35,970 nt of DNA from a virus, in the IMG/VR virus record IMGVR_UViG_3300005436_000021, positions 1 to 35,970 of that record; one strand, 5' to 3'. This document shows, piece by piece, positions 2,202-9,732 of this stretch (the first letter of the stretch is position 1; each line of letters starts with the position of its first letter). A model generated the notes under the pieces. That model worked only from the letters and a program-made list of their open reading frames with translations. It made no database searches and was not told the DNA's origin. Position numbers and translations under genes: made by a program.

Positions 2202-2503
2202 GCCGTCTCCTCCGTTGCTGCCTGGATGAACTCGGTGGTTGCCACCGCGAACGCGATGGTGTCCTGCTTGTAGCGGGCGGCCAGGATCGCCAGGTCGTGC
2301 TTCAGGTCCTCGACATTGTCCTCGTCCACCTCCACGCACCAGCAGGCGTTCTGGAACGGTTCGGCCGGACACGAGAGCCAGGAACCGTGGGTGCGTTCGG
2401 CCGCCCACTCCAGTTCGTCATTGACCGCGTGCCAGTACAGTGCCCATTCGCGCTGGGTCAGCTTGTCGTCGGAGTTGCCGATCGATACGTATGCCGTGAT
2501 CAT
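2198..2503 (-). CDS. Hypothetical protein, 101 aa
   Basis: ATG at 2503 follows GAGGGTGG and overlaps the stop of the WhiB-like gene (ATGA). The first half reads as a beta strand plus amphipathic helix (ITAYVSIGNSDD, then LTQREWALYWHAV). A short Cys pair (ACWC) sits mid-protein in a strand, and a C-terminal helical region includes KHDLAILAARYKQ. The pattern suggests a small alpha/beta fold. No catalytic motif is recognised. Its translation is coupled to the WhiB-like regulator, so the two are probably made in similar amounts. Confidence 0.7.
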   Translation of the reverse strand: MITAYVSIGNSDDKLTQREWALYWHAVNDELEWAAERTHGSWLSCPAEPFQNACWCVEVDEDNVEDLKHDLAILAARYKQDTIAFAVATTEFIQAATEETA

Positions 2504-2844
2504 GCCGCCACCCTCTGTCTGTTGCTCCGTTGAGACTGTCGTTCCTGCCGAAGGGCGGCCAGGCGCTGCACCGCCCTGGTGCCGTTCACCGCGCCCGACC
2601 ACCATTTGCCTCCCAGCACCTGCCCGTTGAACAGTTGGGAGGGGCGCAACGTCAACGCCCAGTCCAGGCACTGCTCACGCACCGAGCACCTGGCGCAGAT
2701 CGCAAGCGCCCGGTTGATGTCCACCGTCCTGACCCGCGAGACCGCCCCCTCCCGTTCGCTCTCGGGGAAGAATAGGGAGGCGTTGCCTGGGCAGGCCGCC
2801 TGGCTGCGCCACGACTGGTCGCCGTAGATCGGCACGTTGATCAT
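2500..2844 (-). CDS. WhiB-family iron-sulfur transcription factor
   Basis: 114 aa from ATG 2844 (GAAGGTGA upstream, ATGA overlap with the previous stop). The four family cysteines are present: C18, then C50-x-x-C53-x5-C59, which bind a [4Fe-4S] cluster in WhiB proteins. A glycine turn (GQVLGGKWW) stands where the family has its G-[VI]-W-G-G turn, but the match is imperfect. A basic Arg/Gln-rich tail could contact DNA. WhiB proteins act with the primary sigma factor in Actinobacteria, and phage copies (for example in mycobacteriophage TM4) can interfere with host WhiB regulation. Here the role is inferred: redirecting host transcription or regulating phage genes. Confidence 0.9.
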   Translation of the reverse strand: MINVPIYGDQSWRSQAACPGNASLFFPESEREGAVSRVRTVDINRALAICARCSVREQCLDWALTLRPSQLFNGQVLGGKWWSGAVNGTRAVQRLAALRQERQSQRSNRQRVAA

Positions 2845-3068
2845 GTGTCGGTCACCTTCGGACCCAGTACCTGTGCGAGGTGGTCCTCGTACTGGCTGCA
2901 CGCTTCTGCCGCGTCGTCCAGCCTGGTGACGTCAACCCAGGCAATCTGACCGTAAGGACTACGGTTGGGGTAGTCGCTGTCGAAGGTGGACACATCCTCC
3001 CAGTAGAGCTTCCACAGCTTCACCAGGGCCTGGAGGGCAGCCCGTTCCACCTGCACCAGGTCAGTCAC
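2841..3068 (-). CDS. Hypothetical protein, 75 aa
   Basis: I place the start at GTG 3068, because it lies in a GTGACTGA overlap with the stop of the ribbon-helix-helix gene. A longer reading from 3125 would run inside that gene. The sequence is amphipathic-helical at the N-terminus (VERAALQALVKLWKLYW) and acidic later (RLDDAAEACSQYEDH). It ends in an ATGA overlap with the WhiB-like gene. No recognised motif. Its position between two regulator-type genes suggests a shared regulatory or host-modifying unit, but that is context only. Confidence 0.65.
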   Translation of the reverse strand: MTDLVQVERAALQALVKLWKLYWEDVSTFDSDYPNRSPYGQIAWVDVTRLDDAAEACSQYEDHLAQVLGPKVTDT

Positions 3069-3279
3069 GCAACTCACCGCCGAGGGTGCGCCGTACCCGT
3101 TCCAGGTACTTGTCCACCAGGGCACCGAATGTCGGTGACTCGCGCACCATGGTCAGGTGGCTCACGCAGGCCACCCGCACCACCTCGCTGAAGGTGGTGT
3201 TCAGCACGCCGGCCAGCAGGTCCAGTTGCTCGATCAGGTCGTCTTCCAGGCGCAGCGACTTGACGGTGCTACCAGGCAT
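3061..3279 (-). CDS. Ribbon-helix-helix DNA-binding protein
   Basis: 72 aa from ATG 3279. The first 45 residues fit the ribbon-helix-helix (MetJ/Arc/CopG) fold: a short beta strand (TVKSLRL), helix A (EDDLIEQLDLLAGVL), then a turn and helix B (TFSEVVRVACVSHL). The charged C-terminal third (VDKYLERVRRTLGG) could be a partner-binding extension. Proteins of this fold dimerise and insert the paired strands in the DNA major groove. The start lies inside the end of the phosphatase gene. Likely role: transcriptional repressor. No toxin neighbour of a classical antitoxin pair is evident, although a toxin-like domain exists in the 457-aa gene of the same operon. Confidence 0.8.
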   Translation of the reverse strand: MPGSTVKSLRLEDDLIEQLDLLAGVLNTTFSEVVRVACVSHLTMVRESPTFGALVDKYLERVRRTLGGELRD

Positions 3280-3892
3280 TGTGGTCACCGTCATCCGGGG
3301 CCGGGACGAACGCCACCACCCGCACGTCGTCGTCGCCACCATCAACCCAGGCCACATGCTCTGCCAGCTCGTCCGCCTTGCGCTCCTGCTCGTCGGCGAG
3401 GGTCTGCTCCTCGCGTGCCAGGTAACGGCGGAAGTGCTCGTTACCCAGGGCGTAGGGGGAACGGCGCCGCTTGATGTGGGCGACCGCCTCCGTCCAGGTC
3501 CAGCCACGGCGAAGCATCACCAACGCCACCAGAAGCCCGGAACGGTTGTAGCCGGCGCGGCAACGCACCAGCACCGTGTCCCCTGCTCGAAGGTTGCCCA
3601 CGATCCGGTCGGCCGCCACCCGCAACAGCTCCCGCTGGTGGTTGTTCAGCATGGCGTCGGGCATGAACAGCAGGTGGTGCTCGGTTCCTTCCGGGGGCCC
3701 GTAGTTGTACACGGCTGCCTCGTTGGCAAGGCGGTCGTCACGCAACCTGATGGAGTACACCACCGTGAACGGGTGCTCAGGCGTCACCTTGGCGTGGCGC
3801 AGGTCCACCGACCCGTCCTCGTGGTATTCGTGGCCACCCATGTACAGGCCGGGGATGATCTCGTTCCACGGCTCGTCGGCGTAGGGAATCAT
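3269..3892 (-). CDS. Dual-specificity / tyrosine protein phosphatase
   Basis: 207 aa. The active-site loop is V-R-C111-R-A-G-Y-N-R117-S-G, the C-x5-R signature of cysteine phosphatases, with nucleophile C111 and phosphate-binding R117. The usual His before the Cys is replaced by Arg (R110). A probable general-acid loop (FMPDAML, D79) lies about 30 residues upstream, as in dual-specificity enzymes. The N-terminus has the family-like EIIPGLYMGG. A C-terminal extension rich in Glu/Asp (EEQTLADEQERKADE) follows the core. It would remove phosphate from Ser/Thr/Tyr of host or phage proteins. Target unknown. ATGA overlap with the upstream gene. Confidence 0.88.
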   Translation of the reverse strand: MIPYADEPWNEIIPGLYMGGHEYHEDGSVDLRHAKVTPEHPFTVVYSIRLRDDRLANEAAVYNYGPPEGTEHHLLFMPDAMLNNHQRELLRVAADRIVGNLRAGDTVLVRCRAGYNRSGLLVALVMLRRGWTWTEAVAHIKRRRSPYALGNEHFRRYLAREEQTLADEQERKADELAEHVAWVDGGDDDVRVVAFVPAPDDGDHNAW

Positions 3893-4257
3893 CCGTCCAC
3901 CTTCTCGAAGTGGATGCCGGCACTGCCGAACCCGCGTTCGGGGTCACCTGTTGTCACCCGGAACTTGCCCTGCCAGCGCATGTTGGGGATGCTGGAGAGC
4001 TGTTCGAACAGGGGGCAGTCGAACAGGTGCCCCAGGATGCGTTCCCGTAGCGGGTGCTGCACGGTGTACCCGTCAGCCTGGAAGTCCACCACGTGCTCGG
4101 TTTCCGGGTTGCCCATGATCAGGCTCATGGCGTCGTTGCGTGGACAGTCACCCTCCACGCACAGCACCTGGGTGGGTTCCTGTTCGATGTCCACGTACAG
4201 GGTCTGGCCACAACCCATCGGGCAGTAGCCGGCCACATGTAGCCGGTCAGCTCCCAT
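3889..4257 (-). CDS. Zinc-ribbon-type protein (CPMGC family)
   Basis: 122 aa from ATG 4257 (GGAGGAGGTGATG upstream). The N-terminal metal site is Y-C12-P-M-G-C16-G and VLC33-VEGDC38-P. The CPMGCG...C...DCP pattern resembles a small actinobacterial/phage family that I recall under a DUF number (DUF6085); that label is from memory. The rest contains a TVQHPLRERI stretch and a mixed alpha/beta C-terminus without obvious catalytic residues. It lies just before, and overlaps, the phosphatase gene. No function is known to me. Confidence 0.7.
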   Translation of the reverse strand: MGADRLHVAGYCPMGCGQTLYVDIEQEPTQVLCVEGDCPRNDAMSLIMGNPETEHVVDFQADGYTVQHPLRERILGHLFDCPLFEQLSSIPNMRWQGKFRVTTGDPERGFGSAGIHFEKVDG

Positions 4258-4930
4258 CGGTCATCACCTCCTCCGGTTTGCGTGCCAGGACCTCCAGTGC
4301 CCACCGGGCGAACTCGTGCAAGTCACTGGGTTCCATGTGGTGCTCCAGACAGAACTTGCGTGCCTTGCGCTTGTCCTCCAGTTCGGCCATGCCACGGCTG
4401 GACAGCGGCACCGCCTCATCGGCCTCCTTGTACCGCCTGATCAGTTCCTGGAGGCACCACTCGATGTCGGGCCACTCCGGGTCACCCGGGTAGATGTCGT
4501 GAAGGTTCAGAACCTCCATCATGGTCATGGTCAGCTTGGTCTCACGCCGGCTCAGCTTCACCTCCGACTGGGTACTGGCGAGGTAGCGGGCGATCAGCTC
4601 CGCGACCTCCCGCTCCGGGTCCACGGTGAAGGTGGTGGCGTCCGGCTCATCGGGACGTAGGGCCTGTGCCACCTGGAAGGAGAGCCGGTTGAGCAGTTCC
4701 GAGTGTGCCCTGTACTGGTTGCGCTCCTCCTGGAGCTTGCGCATGGTGACGGTCAATGAGCCGATGTCCCGGTTGAGGGTGCTCACCTCTTGCTCGTAGG
4801 CGTCCCGGTCGCTGTCCCAGCCCTCCTTCTCGGTCAGCAGCCGGTGTATCTCGGCGACCAGGTCCTGGTGCTGTGTCTCGGTCGCTTCGCGGTAGCTGTT
4901 GAGCTGGTCCATCAGCTCGTTCCAGGTCAC
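4247..4930 (-). CDS. Coiled-coil hypothetical protein, 227 aa
   Basis: GTG start at 4930 overlaps the upstream stop (GTGA). Residues about 1-75 are a long charged helix with heptad-like hydrophobics (LMDQLNSYREATETQHQ onward through IGSLTVTMRKLQEERNQ), a good coiled-coil candidate. A middle helical domain follows (LLNRLSFQVAQAL, EVAELIARYLAS). The C-terminal half is compact and helical, with two widely separated cysteines (WCLQELI, KFCLEHH). It is cytoplasmic with no membrane segment. It may be a scaffold or oligomerising protein. I do not recognise a family. Confidence 0.7.
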   Translation of the reverse strand: MTWNELMDQLNSYREATETQHQDLVAEIHRLLTEKEGWDSDRDAYEQEVSTLNRDIGSLTVTMRKLQEERNQYRAHSELLNRLSFQVAQALRPDEPDATTFTVDPEREVAELIARYLASTQSEVKLSRRETKLTMTMMEVLNLHDIYPGDPEWPDIEWCLQELIRRYKEADEAVPLSSRGMAELEDKRKARKFCLEHHMEPSDLHEFARWALEVLARKPEEVMTDGS

Positions 4931-6160: not shown

Positions 6161-6578
6161 TGGTGGGCTTGGCCGGTACGTGCGGGTGGTGTGGGACCCT
6201 GATCATGTCCGGGTGGCGTGCCTGCCAGTCCTTGAACTCCTGGGCAGTGAGGAAGACCTGGTCGGCCTGCCACTGGAGTCCCAGGCCCTGGCACCGTGAC
6301 CGGTACTGCTCCACTCCCCAGGAGGCACAGATGTCGTCGGCGGCCAGGATGAACACCGGCACCGGGTCGTCTTCGGCAAGGGCGGCCACCTCGGGCGCGG
6401 TGGAACCGTCGTCGGCGATCTCCTCCCCCAGGTCACGCGTGACCCAGATGGTGAACTCGACAGTCTCCTCCTCGGTGCCGTGGTCCACGCTGCCCTTGTG
6501 GTCGTACTCGGCCAGCTTCCAGCCCAACTCCTGGCAGCGTTCCTTGAGCGCCAGCATCAGCTCGAAACGGTCAGTCAT
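6153..6578 (-). CDS. Hypothetical protein, 141 aa
   Basis: ATG at 6578 follows GAGGAGAAGACG. The N-terminal helix (RFELMLALKERCQELGWKL) is followed by an acidic region with beta strands (VEFTIWVTRD, VPVFILAADD). The C-terminus is Gln/His-rich (FKDWQARHPD, HHPHVP). The DDPVPVFILAADDI stretch has the look of a Rossmann-like beta-strand end, but no complete nucleotide-binding motif is present. It follows the duplicated C-x-T-x-x-C-x-A-G genes in the operon. I do not recognise the family. Confidence 0.68.
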   Translation of the reverse strand: MTDRFELMLALKERCQELGWKLAEYDHKGSVDHGTEEETVEFTIWVTRDLGEEIADDGSTAPEVAALAEDDPVPVFILAADDICASWGVEQYRSRCQGLGLQWQADQVFLTAQEFKDWQARHPDMIRVPHHPHVPAKPTSD

Positions 6579-6978
6579 GCGTCTTCTCCTCGCTGCTCGC
6601 GGCCAGGATCTTGTCGGCTTCGGGGCCGAACGGGTCCATGCCGATGACATAGCCGACCTGCTGTGCCAGCTTCTGCATGTTGTCGGTGAAGCTGTAGAAG
6701 ATGGTGCACACCTGCCTGTCCGTGAGTCCCAGCAGCACCCGTGCCTCGTCGTCACAGTGCCACGAGCTGATGGTCCGGCCGTCCTTGGCCAGTCTGGCTT
6801 CCCCGTGCCGGTCCCACGACCACTCCCAGCCACCGAGAATCATCGCCCAGCCGGCGAAGCAGTGGGTGGTGTAGCAGCCCTGTGCCGCCTGGATCTGGCG
6901 ACCGTAGTGGTTCTGGTCCCACCGCTCCTCGTGGTCGGCGATGAAGCGCATGGTACGGATCATGAGCGCGGTGTTCAC
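6571..6978 (-). CDS. C-x-T-x-x-C-x-A-G family protein, paralog B, 135 aa
   Basis: GTG at 6978 overlaps the upstream stop (GTGA). Architecture: helix (MIRTMRFIADHEERWDQ), core motif G-C-Y-T-T-H-C-F-A-G-W at about residues 34-44, then a Trp-rich stretch (GGWEWSWD) and a C-terminal helix ending DPFGPEADKIL. It is aligned by eye with the gene at 6975-7379, which shares the N-terminal helix, the Cys motif and the ending DP-x-GPEAD. Proteins with a CGTxxCxAG core are widespread in actinobacterial plasmids and phages, to my recollection without a known function. Confidence 0.75.
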   Translation of the reverse strand: MNTALMIRTMRFIADHEERWDQNHYGRQIQAAQGCYTTHCFAGWAMILGGWEWSWDRHGEARLAKDGRTISSWHCDDEARVLLGLTDRQVCTIFYSFTDNMQKLAQQVGYVIGMDPFGPEADKILAASSEEKTHD

Positions 6979-7379
6979 GCCGACACCTCCGCCAAAAGCG
7001 CGTCAGCCTCGGGACCGGTCGGGTCGAACCCGAGCAGGCTGGTGACAACGACACGGACACCGTTCAGGTCAAATGCCCACAGGAACAGTCGGGCCGCTTC
7101 CCCGTCCTCGATCCCCAGCTCACTGCGGGCCACCTTGTACGCCGACTCGTGCCGCCGACCCTTGGTGACACCGTCAAGGTCACGCATCTGTTCCCCGGCG
7201 ATGAAGTACGGGGCGCTCCACACCGGCTTCCAACCGGCCATCAGTGCCGCGTGGCCGGCGAAGCAGAAGCAGGTGCCGCACTCGGTCTCCTCGCCGAACA
7301 TGGCCTGGTTGTGCTGTTCCGGGTGCTCGATGATGTAGCGGAACACCCGCACCATCAGTGCCTGTTGCTCTCGTGTCAT
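6975..7379 (-). CDS. C-x-T-x-x-C-x-A-G family protein, paralog A, 134 aa
   Basis: ATG at 7379 in an ATGA overlap with the 457-aa gene. N-terminal helix VRVFRYIIEHPEQHNQ, then E-C-G-T-C-F-C-F-A-G-H near residues 33-43, the best match in this window to the family core. A predicted alpha domain with a charged segment (GRRHESAYKVARSELG) leads to the shared ending DPTGPEADALL. The Cys pair, optionally with nearby His, could bind metal or form a disulfide. It is one of four related products in this operon. Mechanism unknown. Confidence 0.76.
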   Translation of the reverse strand: MTREQQALMVRVFRYIIEHPEQHNQAMFGEETECGTCFCFAGHAALMAGWKPVWSAPYFIAGEQMRDLDGVTKGRRHESAYKVARSELGIEDGEAARLFLWAFDLNGVRVVVTSLLGFDPTGPEADALLAEVSA

Positions 7380-8749
7380 GCGCCTGCCTCCATGTCGGTT
7401 GCGCGAGCGTAGAGGTGGTAGACGTCGGGTTCGGTGGGGTGGCGCACGATCTGCACCTGCACGTTACGGTGACCCTTGATCACCACGGTGGTCACCAGCC
7501 CGAACCGGCGACCCGGGTCCTTGGCCAGCTCGGACAGGGCACCGGTCACCTCTGGCAGTTCCAGCACCAGCTCCATCGCCTTGGCGAAGTCGGTGACCTG
7601 GGGCTCCTGGCCGGGAAGGTAGTCCACGAACGTGATGCCGGCACCGGATTCCTCGGCCAGGATGGCGTCCACCAGTACCTGCGCCTCCCGGTCGTCCTGC
7701 GGCTGCGACAGCTCCTCCACGTTGCCTTCCGTCACGTGACCCAGCTTGCGGTACTGGCCGAAGTCCAGCCGCTCGATGGTCTTGCCCACCTGGAAACCGA
7801 GCTTGCCGTAGATGTGGGACTCCTTGACCTCATCAAGGCTGCCCGTAAGGTAGTCCTTCCAGTTGCTGGCGGTGAACTCGGCGCCCGCCGGCAGTTGGTC
7901 CATGAAGTCCATGTACAACTGGTGGACGATACCGGCACGGCTGTGCGCCGGGCGGTAACCGTTGCTGGTGGTGACGGGGTGCGCCACCGCCCACACGCCA
8001 CGTGCCACGTTGTAGATCTGACCGATCTGCTCCGCGCGGTAGGTCATGTTGATGATGGTGCCCTTGGGCACCTCGAACATGGTGGCTGCCGCGAAGCTGT
8101 ACCAGTCGCTGGTGGTGAAGCGGTCGTCGGGACCCCGCCGGGAGATGAACTTGTCCCAGCATTCCTGGAGTCCCGCGACCCGCACGGGTGTGTTGCGCAT
8201 GCGTGGCCTGATCTCCCGGCCATCCTTGGTGGTGCGTGCGGCGTGTGGCACTGGCTTCTCCTCCTTCTTGGATGCTGCCGGCGGTACCTCCACCAGTAGC
8301 GGTACAGCACTGGCGGGGTGGTCCTTGCTTGCCGCCGTCGCCAGTTTCAGTGCTTCCTGAGTCACCGGATCCAGGTGCTCGTCCACCTGGTAGAGCATGG
8401 TGCCCAGCAGGTACGAGGTCTCCTGCGCCTGGGTCGGCACCATCGGGGTGCGGGGCGACAGCGGGCGTCCCTTGCGGATGTGGCTGTTGAGGTCGGTGAC
8501 GGTGATGACGTCAAGGGTCCGTGGGTCGTAGACCACCTCGATGTCCCCACGCTTGGCGCACACCGCCCGTCCACCGTTCTGGGTGGTCCAGTCGGTTTCG
8601 TCGGGGCGGTCGATGCAGGCCAGCACCTCGTAGTGGCCGAACCCGCGCTCCTGGCGCTGCTGTTCACCATGGATGGTGTAGGACACGCGTGCCGGAACCA
8701 CCCAGGTCAGCCGTGGTGGCAGTGGCTTGGACAACCGCCAGTCGCTCAT
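7376..8749 (-). CDS. 457-aa protein: DUF4258-like N-terminus plus internal duplication
   Basis: Start ATG 8749 (GAGGAGGCGAC upstream). Residues about 20-86 (IHGEQQRQERG, EVLACIDRP, GRAVCAKRGDIEVVYD, VITVTDL) follow the order of DUF4258/BrnT-like small domains: H-x-x-x-R-x-x-ERG helix, then strands ending VVYD and ITV. Those are related to RelE-type toxin folds. A Pro/Lys linker follows (about 150-190). Two similar segments come next, about 197-250 and 279-336, each with F-T-x-S-[DN]-W about 12 residues in, followed by a helix-rich unit. The C-terminal 100 residues are mixed alpha/beta. It is the largest gene of the left operon. It could be a nucleic-acid-binding effector, but activity is not shown. 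Confidence 0.72.
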   Translation of the reverse strand: MSDWRLSKPLPPRLTWVVPARVSYTIHGEQQRQERGFGHYEVLACIDRPDETDWTTQNGGRAVCAKRGDIEVVYDPRTLDVITVTDLNSHIRKGRPLSPRTPMVPTQAQETSYLLGTMLYQVDEHLDPVTQEALKLATAASKDHPASAVPLLVEVPPAASKKEEKPVPHAARTTKDGREIRPRMRNTPVRVAGLQECWDKFISRRGPDDRFTTSDWYSFAAATMFEVPKGTIINMTYRAEQIGQIYNVARGVWAVAHPVTTSNGYRPAHSRAGIVHQLYMDFMDQLPAGAEFTASNWKDYLTGSLDEVKESHIYGKLGFQVGKTIERLDFGQYRKLGHVTEGNVEELSQPQDDREAQVLVDAILAEESGAGITFVDYLPGQEPQVTDFAKAMELVLELPEVTGALSELAKDPGRRFGLVTTVVIKGHRNVQVQIVRHPTEPDVYHLYARATDMEAGA

Positions 8750-9210
8750 GTCGCCTCCTCTTCCGGGTCTGTGCCGGTGACCTCCGTGATGATGCGCCGC
8801 AGGTCGTCCAGGGTGTTGGTGGCGCAGAACAGCTTGTCGGCGTCGGTGGGGTTGAGTCCCAGCACCTTACGTGCGACGTGCGCTATCTGGAGGTTCTGGC
8901 CGTAGGTGTCGGTGTCGGCCACGAACCAGGAGCTGTCGTACCACCCGTCCATTGGCGTGAAGCGGGGCTCCCACACCAGCTTGTAGCCGGCGCGGACGAC
9001 AGCGTGTCCGGCGAGGCAGTAGGCGGTACGGCAGCCGTGCTCACTGCGGGCAGCGAACAGCCGCTGCTCCCACTCCTTGGGGTGGGCCTTGATGTAGCGG
9101 TAGATGGCCACCAGTTCGGCGGTGTCGGGGTCCGACGGCTCCGGTGTGGGAACGTAGTCCCAGTCGTCGTCGTAGCACTCGACCTCGCCGAAGGGTTCCG
9201 GTTCGCTCAC
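8746..9210 (-). CDS. C-x-T-x-x-C-x-A-G family protein, paralog C, 154 aa
   Basis: I choose GTG 9210 (AAGGAGGAGAA immediately upstream, overlap with the preceding small gene). An in-frame start at 9303 lies inside that gene. An acidic, Pro-rich leader of about 30 residues (PFGEVECYDDDWDYV) precedes the family helix (LVAIYRYIKAHPKEW), the core G-C-R-T-A-Y-C-L-A-G-H and a Trp-rich middle. The C-terminus (LDDLRRIITEVTGTD) differs from the GPEAD ending of paralogs A and B, so it is a more diverged member. Confidence 0.75.
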   Translation of the reverse strand: MSEPEPFGEVECYDDDWDYVPTPEPSDPDTAELVAIYRYIKAHPKEWEQRLFAARSEHGCRTAYCLAGHAVVRAGYKLVWEPRFTPMDGWYDSSWFVADTDTYGQNLQIAHVARKVLGLNPTDADKLFCATNTLDDLRRIITEVTGTDPEEEAT

Positions 9211-9368
9211 TTCTCCTCCTTGCTCGGGGTCATCATCGACGCGTGGATCAGGGTGCCGAACGAGACACCTTCCTCCTGGCGTGGGCCGAGGTTCGTGTTC
9301 CAAGGCTGCCGGTGATCGGTGATGTACCGGTAGATCTGGACGATCAGGTCCAAGTTCGCCTTTGCCAT
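9207..9368 (-). CDS. 53-aa protein resembling the N-terminal helix of the paralog family
   Basis: First gene of the leftward operon: ATG 9368 with a near-perfect ribosome-binding site (GAAGGAGGAGAG). Its helix LIVQIYRYITDHRQPWNTN lines up with LVAIYRYIKAHPKEW of the next gene and with the same region of the two genes at 6571-7379. The Cys core and everything after it are missing. The stop overlaps the next GTG (GTGA). It is a truncated paralog or a dedicated short regulator of its longer relatives. The strong start argues it is expressed rather than decayed. Confidence 0.72.
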   Translation of the reverse strand: MAKANLDLIVQIYRYITDHRQPWNTNLGPRQEEGVSFGTLIHASMMTPSKEEK

Positions 9369-9404: not shown

Positions 9405-9434
9405 ACGCTACCACACCCCCCGTGGGATATGGTA
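9405..9434 (-). promoter_or_regulatory. Putative leftward promoter of the left operon
   Basis: On the minus strand a TAGCGT hexamer (plus 9405-9410) fits a TAnnnT -10 element and would start RNA near 9398, about 30 bases before the first gene (ATG 9368). The 18 bases upstream contain CCCACGGGGGGTG, the same 13 bases found in the spacer of the promoter at 13323-13352. No good -35 hexamer is present (TACCAT at the expected place), so activation or an unusual promoter type is possible. Confidence 0.45.
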
Positions 9435-9435
9435 G
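9408..9435. promoter_or_regulatory. Inverted repeat / operator candidate in the divergent promoter region
   Basis: CTACCA (9408-9413) and TGGTAG (9430-9435) form a perfect 6-bp inverted repeat flanking the G/C run CACCCCCCGTGGG (9414-9426). Within it CCAC and GTGG also mirror one another. It overlaps the candidate -10 of the leftward promoter and the region where a rightward promoter must lie. It could bind a dimeric regulator controlling both directions. The remaining bases of 9369-9444 hold only the leftward leader with its ribosome-binding site. Confidence 0.45.
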
Positions 9436-9444: not shown

Positions 9445-9732
9445 ATGACGACTTTGACAGCGGCCCCCGAGCAGGGCCAAGACGACATCGACGGCGAGTA
9501 CGGTGCCCAGAACTACCTCCTCGCCCACCTCGCAGCCACCCGTGCCGGCGCAGAGGAGGCACGTCTCATGGCGGCCCAGTGCGGGGAACGCGCCCGCAAG
9601 CTTGCCTACGAACTGCACTACGCGCCCTACTCCATGAGTTGCCTTGCCATCGCCAAGGCCATCGGATGCTCGGTGTCCACCGTCGAGCGGCTGGTGGCAC
9701 GGGAACGCTTCGCCAGGGGTGAGCGCGGATGA
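9445..9732 (+). CDS. Helix-turn-helix protein, 95 aa
   Basis: First gene of the rightward operon. Residues about 62-86 (YSMSCLAIAKAIGCSVSTVE) read as a helix-turn-helix: first helix LAIAKAIG, turn C-S-V, recognition helix STVERLVAR. It is preceded by an Ala/Glu-rich helix that may serve as a dimerisation arm (residues 25-58). Its position beside the divergent control region suggests it regulates one or both operons. It lacks an enzymatic domain such as a resolvase catalytic region, which this type of HTH sometimes accompanies. Confidence 0.75.
   Translation: MTTLTAAPEQGQDDIDGEYGAQNYLLAHLAATRAGAEEARLMAAQCGERARKLAYELHYAPYSMSCLAIAKAIGCSVSTVERLVARERFARGERG

Follow-up and report, generated by a model that had tools for sequence, protein, structure and literature searches.

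The leftward operon described here encodes three new members of PHROG 889, a known phage family of unknown function, together with one odd short copy, gene D, which so far stands as a single case. Tandem copies are ordinary in PHROG 889; the short copy alone departs from the usual, and only mildly. The whole stretch of DNA analysed, hereafter the window, comprises 35,970 bases in one virus record and comes from an uncultured virus of actinobacteria. Its right part carries the portal, major head, major tail and tape measure genes, which are closest to those of actinobacteriophages, the major head protein being 37% identical to that of Gordonia phages. A nucleotide search with the first 12.5 kb found no match in phages, and searches of IMG/VR with the 457-aa protein described below, B, C, D and the major head and portal proteins revealed no close relative of the virus.

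The sequence-only reading had described four related genes in one operon, three long and one short, and all four reading frames were confirmed on the minus strand. Gene A (6571-6978, 135 aa), gene B (6975-7379, 134 aa) and gene C (8746-9210, 154 aa from a GTG start) are full members of PHROG 889 with E values of 2e-15, 9e-16 and 2e-18, respectively, and the profile match is significant and nearly full-length in each. The mutual similarity proposed for the long members is evident from BLASTP (E 7e-20 for A and B, 1e-20 for B and C), with 35-36% identity. All three share the core C-x-T-x-x-C-[FL]-A-G-[HW] and an invariant Gln; the ending DP-x-GPEAD, reported for two of the genes, is indeed found in A and B and is missing from C, and C carries an acidic N-terminal extension of 28 residues. 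Judged by these likenesses, A, B and C are tandem paralogues within PHROG 889, a family in which multi-copy genomes are common. In the tree A and B are sisters (SH-aLRT 88), and C is placed elsewhere, unsupported. An overlapping match to PHROG 30739 covers the first 50-60 residues of A, B and C. It is weaker than that to PHROG 889 for every gene of the window, and PHROG 30739 is most likely a branch of the PHROG 889 family.

The family profile and the alignment of 59 members were built with 37 loci taken from IMG/VR and from annotated phages. All 59 aligned members match PHROG 889 and 55 of them match PHROG 30739. Among the proteins covering the core, the second Cys (C39) is present in 76 of 76 and the first (C34) in 72 of 76, and the Gln (Q25) of a W/H-x-x-Q stretch occurs in all 74 proteins with letters at that site. 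Two to six members per record, often in direct succession, were found in 16 of 47 viral records, which had been chosen for holding a member and among which the near copies L025 and L026 make the independent multi-copy cases slightly fewer. L019 has six copies, L027 and L034 have five each, L021 and L046 four each, and Gordonia phage Yvonnetastic three. In the tree, copies from the same genome group together more than under shuffled labels (18 changes versus 31.6), most forks being poorly supported.

The PHROG 889 protein is almost exclusively one of phages and prophages of actinobacteria. The family had been said to recur in both actinobacteria and phages; this holds for the phages, and in the bacteria it was found only as a prophage. 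Of 296 genomes searched in the phylum, the sole one with a member was that of the Actinomadura used as search centre. The stretch in question reads as a prophage, in which the member adjoins a recombinase and an Erf-like recombination gene (the names are our own reading of the translations). The family had also been described as having no known role, which agrees with its listing in PHROGs, and searches of Pfam, NCBIfam and PADLOC with the 59 members gave nothing credible.

The predicted structure of B (pLDDT 96.6, pTM 0.88) is a compact single alpha/beta domain, in which the first helix is one element of several; after it come a hairpin, a short helix immediately following Cys39, a small sheet and four further helices. 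A sequence search for a counterpart among solved structures gave chance matches only. Comparison of the model with solved structures gave a best Foldseek E of 0.87 and a VIA-align Z of at most 2.7, which does not in itself make the fold new, and where viral models match well, they are phage proteins of the same kind.

The four genes belong to a chain of minus-strand genes linked by four-base overlaps, which starts at 9368 with D and C and runs leftward through a 457-aa gene to B, A and further genes. This intervening gene (7376-8749, minus strand) is an unrelated one. Its N terminus (aa 24-84) shows a weak likeness to DUF4258 that stays below the cut-off (E 0.015); no family exceeded the cut-off, and the rest of the protein gave no family match. 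Further along the same chain lies a gene for a WhiB-like transcription factor (2500-2901, minus strand; PF02467, E 2.7e-10). A dual-specificity phosphatase-like gene (3269-3892, minus strand; PF00782, E 2e-9) adjoins a DUF6085 gene (3889-4257, minus strand; E 4e-29). On the other side of D, a divergent 95-aa gene (9445-9732, plus strand) shows a weak helix-turn-helix match (HTH_23, E 5e-4, below the cut-off). The short intergenic space upstream of D, between the two divergent operons, contains an imperfect inverted repeat, CTACCACACCCC/GGGATATGGTAG (9408-9435), with 12-nt arms of which 10 of 12 positions pair, and this repeat is a possible operator candidate. The divergent region at the start of the leftward operon is probably regulatory.

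Gene D (9207-9368, minus strand, 53 aa), the first gene of the leftward operon, is a real gene, with a coding signal over its full length and in its tail alone. Its codon use amounts to 0.511 bits per codon, compared with a median of 0.512 for true 53-codon segments, and its coding score is attained by 0.5% of wrong-frame segments. Against the family profile D scores 9.6 bits, a match confined to the helix, whereas the best of 5,000 shuffles of D reached 6.5, and it ranks first among 3,571 short ORFs from 52 sequences. An N-terminal profile built without the proteins of the window gave D 13.3 bits and rank 2 of 9,450 short stop-to-stop segments, the one above it being a complete 99-aa family member. 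In pairwise comparisons with A, B and C, the score of D was reached by 0, 0 and 1 of 3,000 shuffles each, which speaks against a helix matching by chance composition. These comparisons show the likeness of its N terminus to the family to be non-random, although the match is short and leaves chance some room.

According to the sequence-only reading, D has the family helix and nothing after it. The helix is shared, but the similarity runs on beyond it, over about residues 1-32. The tail (residues 33-53) has a good in-frame coding signal, yet its similarity to the family is not significant. D differs from the long members in that its N terminus alone matches; the profile searches that place A, B and C in PHROG 889 do not report D, and no family was reported for it in PHROGs (E up to 1) or Pfam. 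In the alignment to B, the invariant Gln and both core Cys are replaced in D by Thr, Glu and Gly, the Glu and Gly sites falling in the non-significant part of the alignment. The short member as operon leader had been singled out as the unusual part, and it proved to be without parallel in the loci examined: no D-like short form lies beside the long members in 51 other loci, tblastn revealed no relatives of D in phages, and nothing D-like was found in IMG/VR. A frameshift was rejected as the origin of D, since on reading the sequence the other frames of its DNA lack the C-x-T-x-x-C core and also any coding signal. Recent copying was likewise rejected, as the helix DNA of A to D, compared codon by codon, shows no recent copy.

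Two further frames were noted in the survey. In L027 a 67-aa frame (4295-4498, plus strand) about 1 kb upstream of the tandem array scores 10.2 bits; its N-terminal stretch, EYIAEHPEQ, is similar, and the motif after it, GQAYMNVL, looks unrelated. In L046 an 89-aa member of the tandem array (6677-6946) lacks the conserved middle core and matches profile positions 1-20 and 58-111 only; by its sequence it is another damaged or reduced copy.

The explanation that we tentatively prefer, while rating it a little short of probable, is that A, B and C are tandem paralogues with host-directed roles and that D is a truncated copy which couples the translation of C. D would be what remains of a fourth paralogue after loss of the conserved core, namely its N-terminal part. 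It would still be translated, and its main effect would lie at the DNA/RNA level, in coupling the translation of C to the start of the operon. The stop of D and the start of C overlap in GTGA (9207-9210, minus strand), and D ends in AAG GAG GAG AAG TGA, of which AAG GAG GAG AAG is the Shine-Dalgarno sequence of C. Ribosomes finishing D could therefore pass to C through the overlap and the Shine-Dalgarno sequence in the last codons of D. The ribosome-binding site of D, AAGGAGGAGA, had been called the best of the set; it ties with that of C, which is identical to the letter. The operon as a whole would be a leftward set of small accessory genes starting at the divergent, probably regulatory region. 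Coupling to C is most likely the role of D, if D has any. Overlaps like GTGA connect most genes of the leftward operon; coupling through overlaps is frequent in the operons of phages and need not matter for D in particular.

A rather unlikely but by no means negligible reading is that D no longer has any function and is the remnant of an incomplete duplication or of a deletion. D lacks every invariant polar residue, the family duplicates often, and the member of L046 described above has likewise lost its core. The coding signal of D, tail included, is on the other hand that of live genes, although a recent event would also leave such a signal intact. The good signal in the tail argues against simple decay, and D may have its own function.

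We consider it improbable that D is a small protein of separate origin whose amphipathic helix merely looks similar, an idea that would fit a match spanning only about 20-30 residues and the silence of PHROGs and Pfam on D. The shuffling results (0 or 1 of 3,000 per comparison) argue against it, as does the first or second rank of D among thousands of short frames, also without the window's proteins. Furthermore, D shares its operon with A, B and C.

The sequence-only reading had suggested subunit competition or regulation, in which D would act at the protein level as a helix-only form that binds, blocks or tunes the long members or their partner. D does retain the N-terminal helix, its entire frame shows the coding signal, and it is made first in the operon. 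Nothing points to oligomers formed through the first helix, however: B is predicted to be a compact monomeric domain and its model gives no hint of first-helix exchange. In addition, a short form beside long forms does not recur in the 51 other loci or in the phage records, although tandem long forms are common. We regard such a protein-level regulator as distinctly improbable, and the narrower version, in which D is a dedicated short form that is made first, is met by the three long paralogues during their folding and serves as their dominant partner or inhibitor, as very improbable. D matters only if it proves to affect the long forms or their translation.

With regard to the long members, we favour a role as early host-directed proteins, for take-over or counter-defence, that are kept in several diverging versions. 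This suggestion, made by analogy, is based on the restriction of the family to phages, on its position among accessory genes near regulators, integrases and recombination genes, and on its duplication and divergence. In several annotated phages the members have repressor, integrase or recombination genes nearby, and their neighbours share no families beyond those of near-identical phages. Published cytotoxicity screens are uninformative on PHROG 889, since the phages screened (LeBron, Waterfoul, Girr and Adephagia) have no member; nor was one found in Amelie, the last of the five mycobacteriophages used or cited there. The confident compact fold without a solved relative, the invariant Gln25 and Cys39 and the repeated tandem expansion make this widespread actinophage family, to which no function is assigned, a fair target for functional study.

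The only function found attached to any member is the label 'RDF protein' on Mycobacterium phage Quink gp99 in GenBank (KF279417; L081 1501-1971), which also appears on a structure library entry for phage Henry, whose gp93 is a relative of Quink gp99 and a PHROG 889 member (E 4e-18). That PHROG 889 is a recombination directionality factor is extremely improbable even with some members located near integrases: among the matches listed Quink alone is so labelled, the other relatives being hypothetical proteins, no paper was found in support of the label, and several copies per genome are ill-suited to a factor paired with one integrase. Courthouse gp106, also annotated as RDF, was set aside as an unrelated, lipoprotein-like protein.

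DUF6197 (PF19698) resembles PHROG 889 in having an N-terminal helix, a W-x-Q-like motif, a hairpin and a Cys starting a short helix, in the same order, as far as can be judged from a DUF6197 model of low confidence (pLDDT 63). The profile comparison between the two is weak, with a probability of 6.6% and an E of 0.0056 for one comparison, and none of the 59 members exceeded the cut-off of the DUF6197 Pfam profile, one reaching an E of 0.096. On this evidence DUF6197 may possibly be distant kin of PHROG 889. Tandem DUF6197 domains and second copies have been reported from Gordonia cluster A15 phages (PMC10586128), and DUF6197 proteins are also encoded in some of the PHROG 889 phages and in the same prophage (L063/L059 of Actinomadura alba, L064 and L069).
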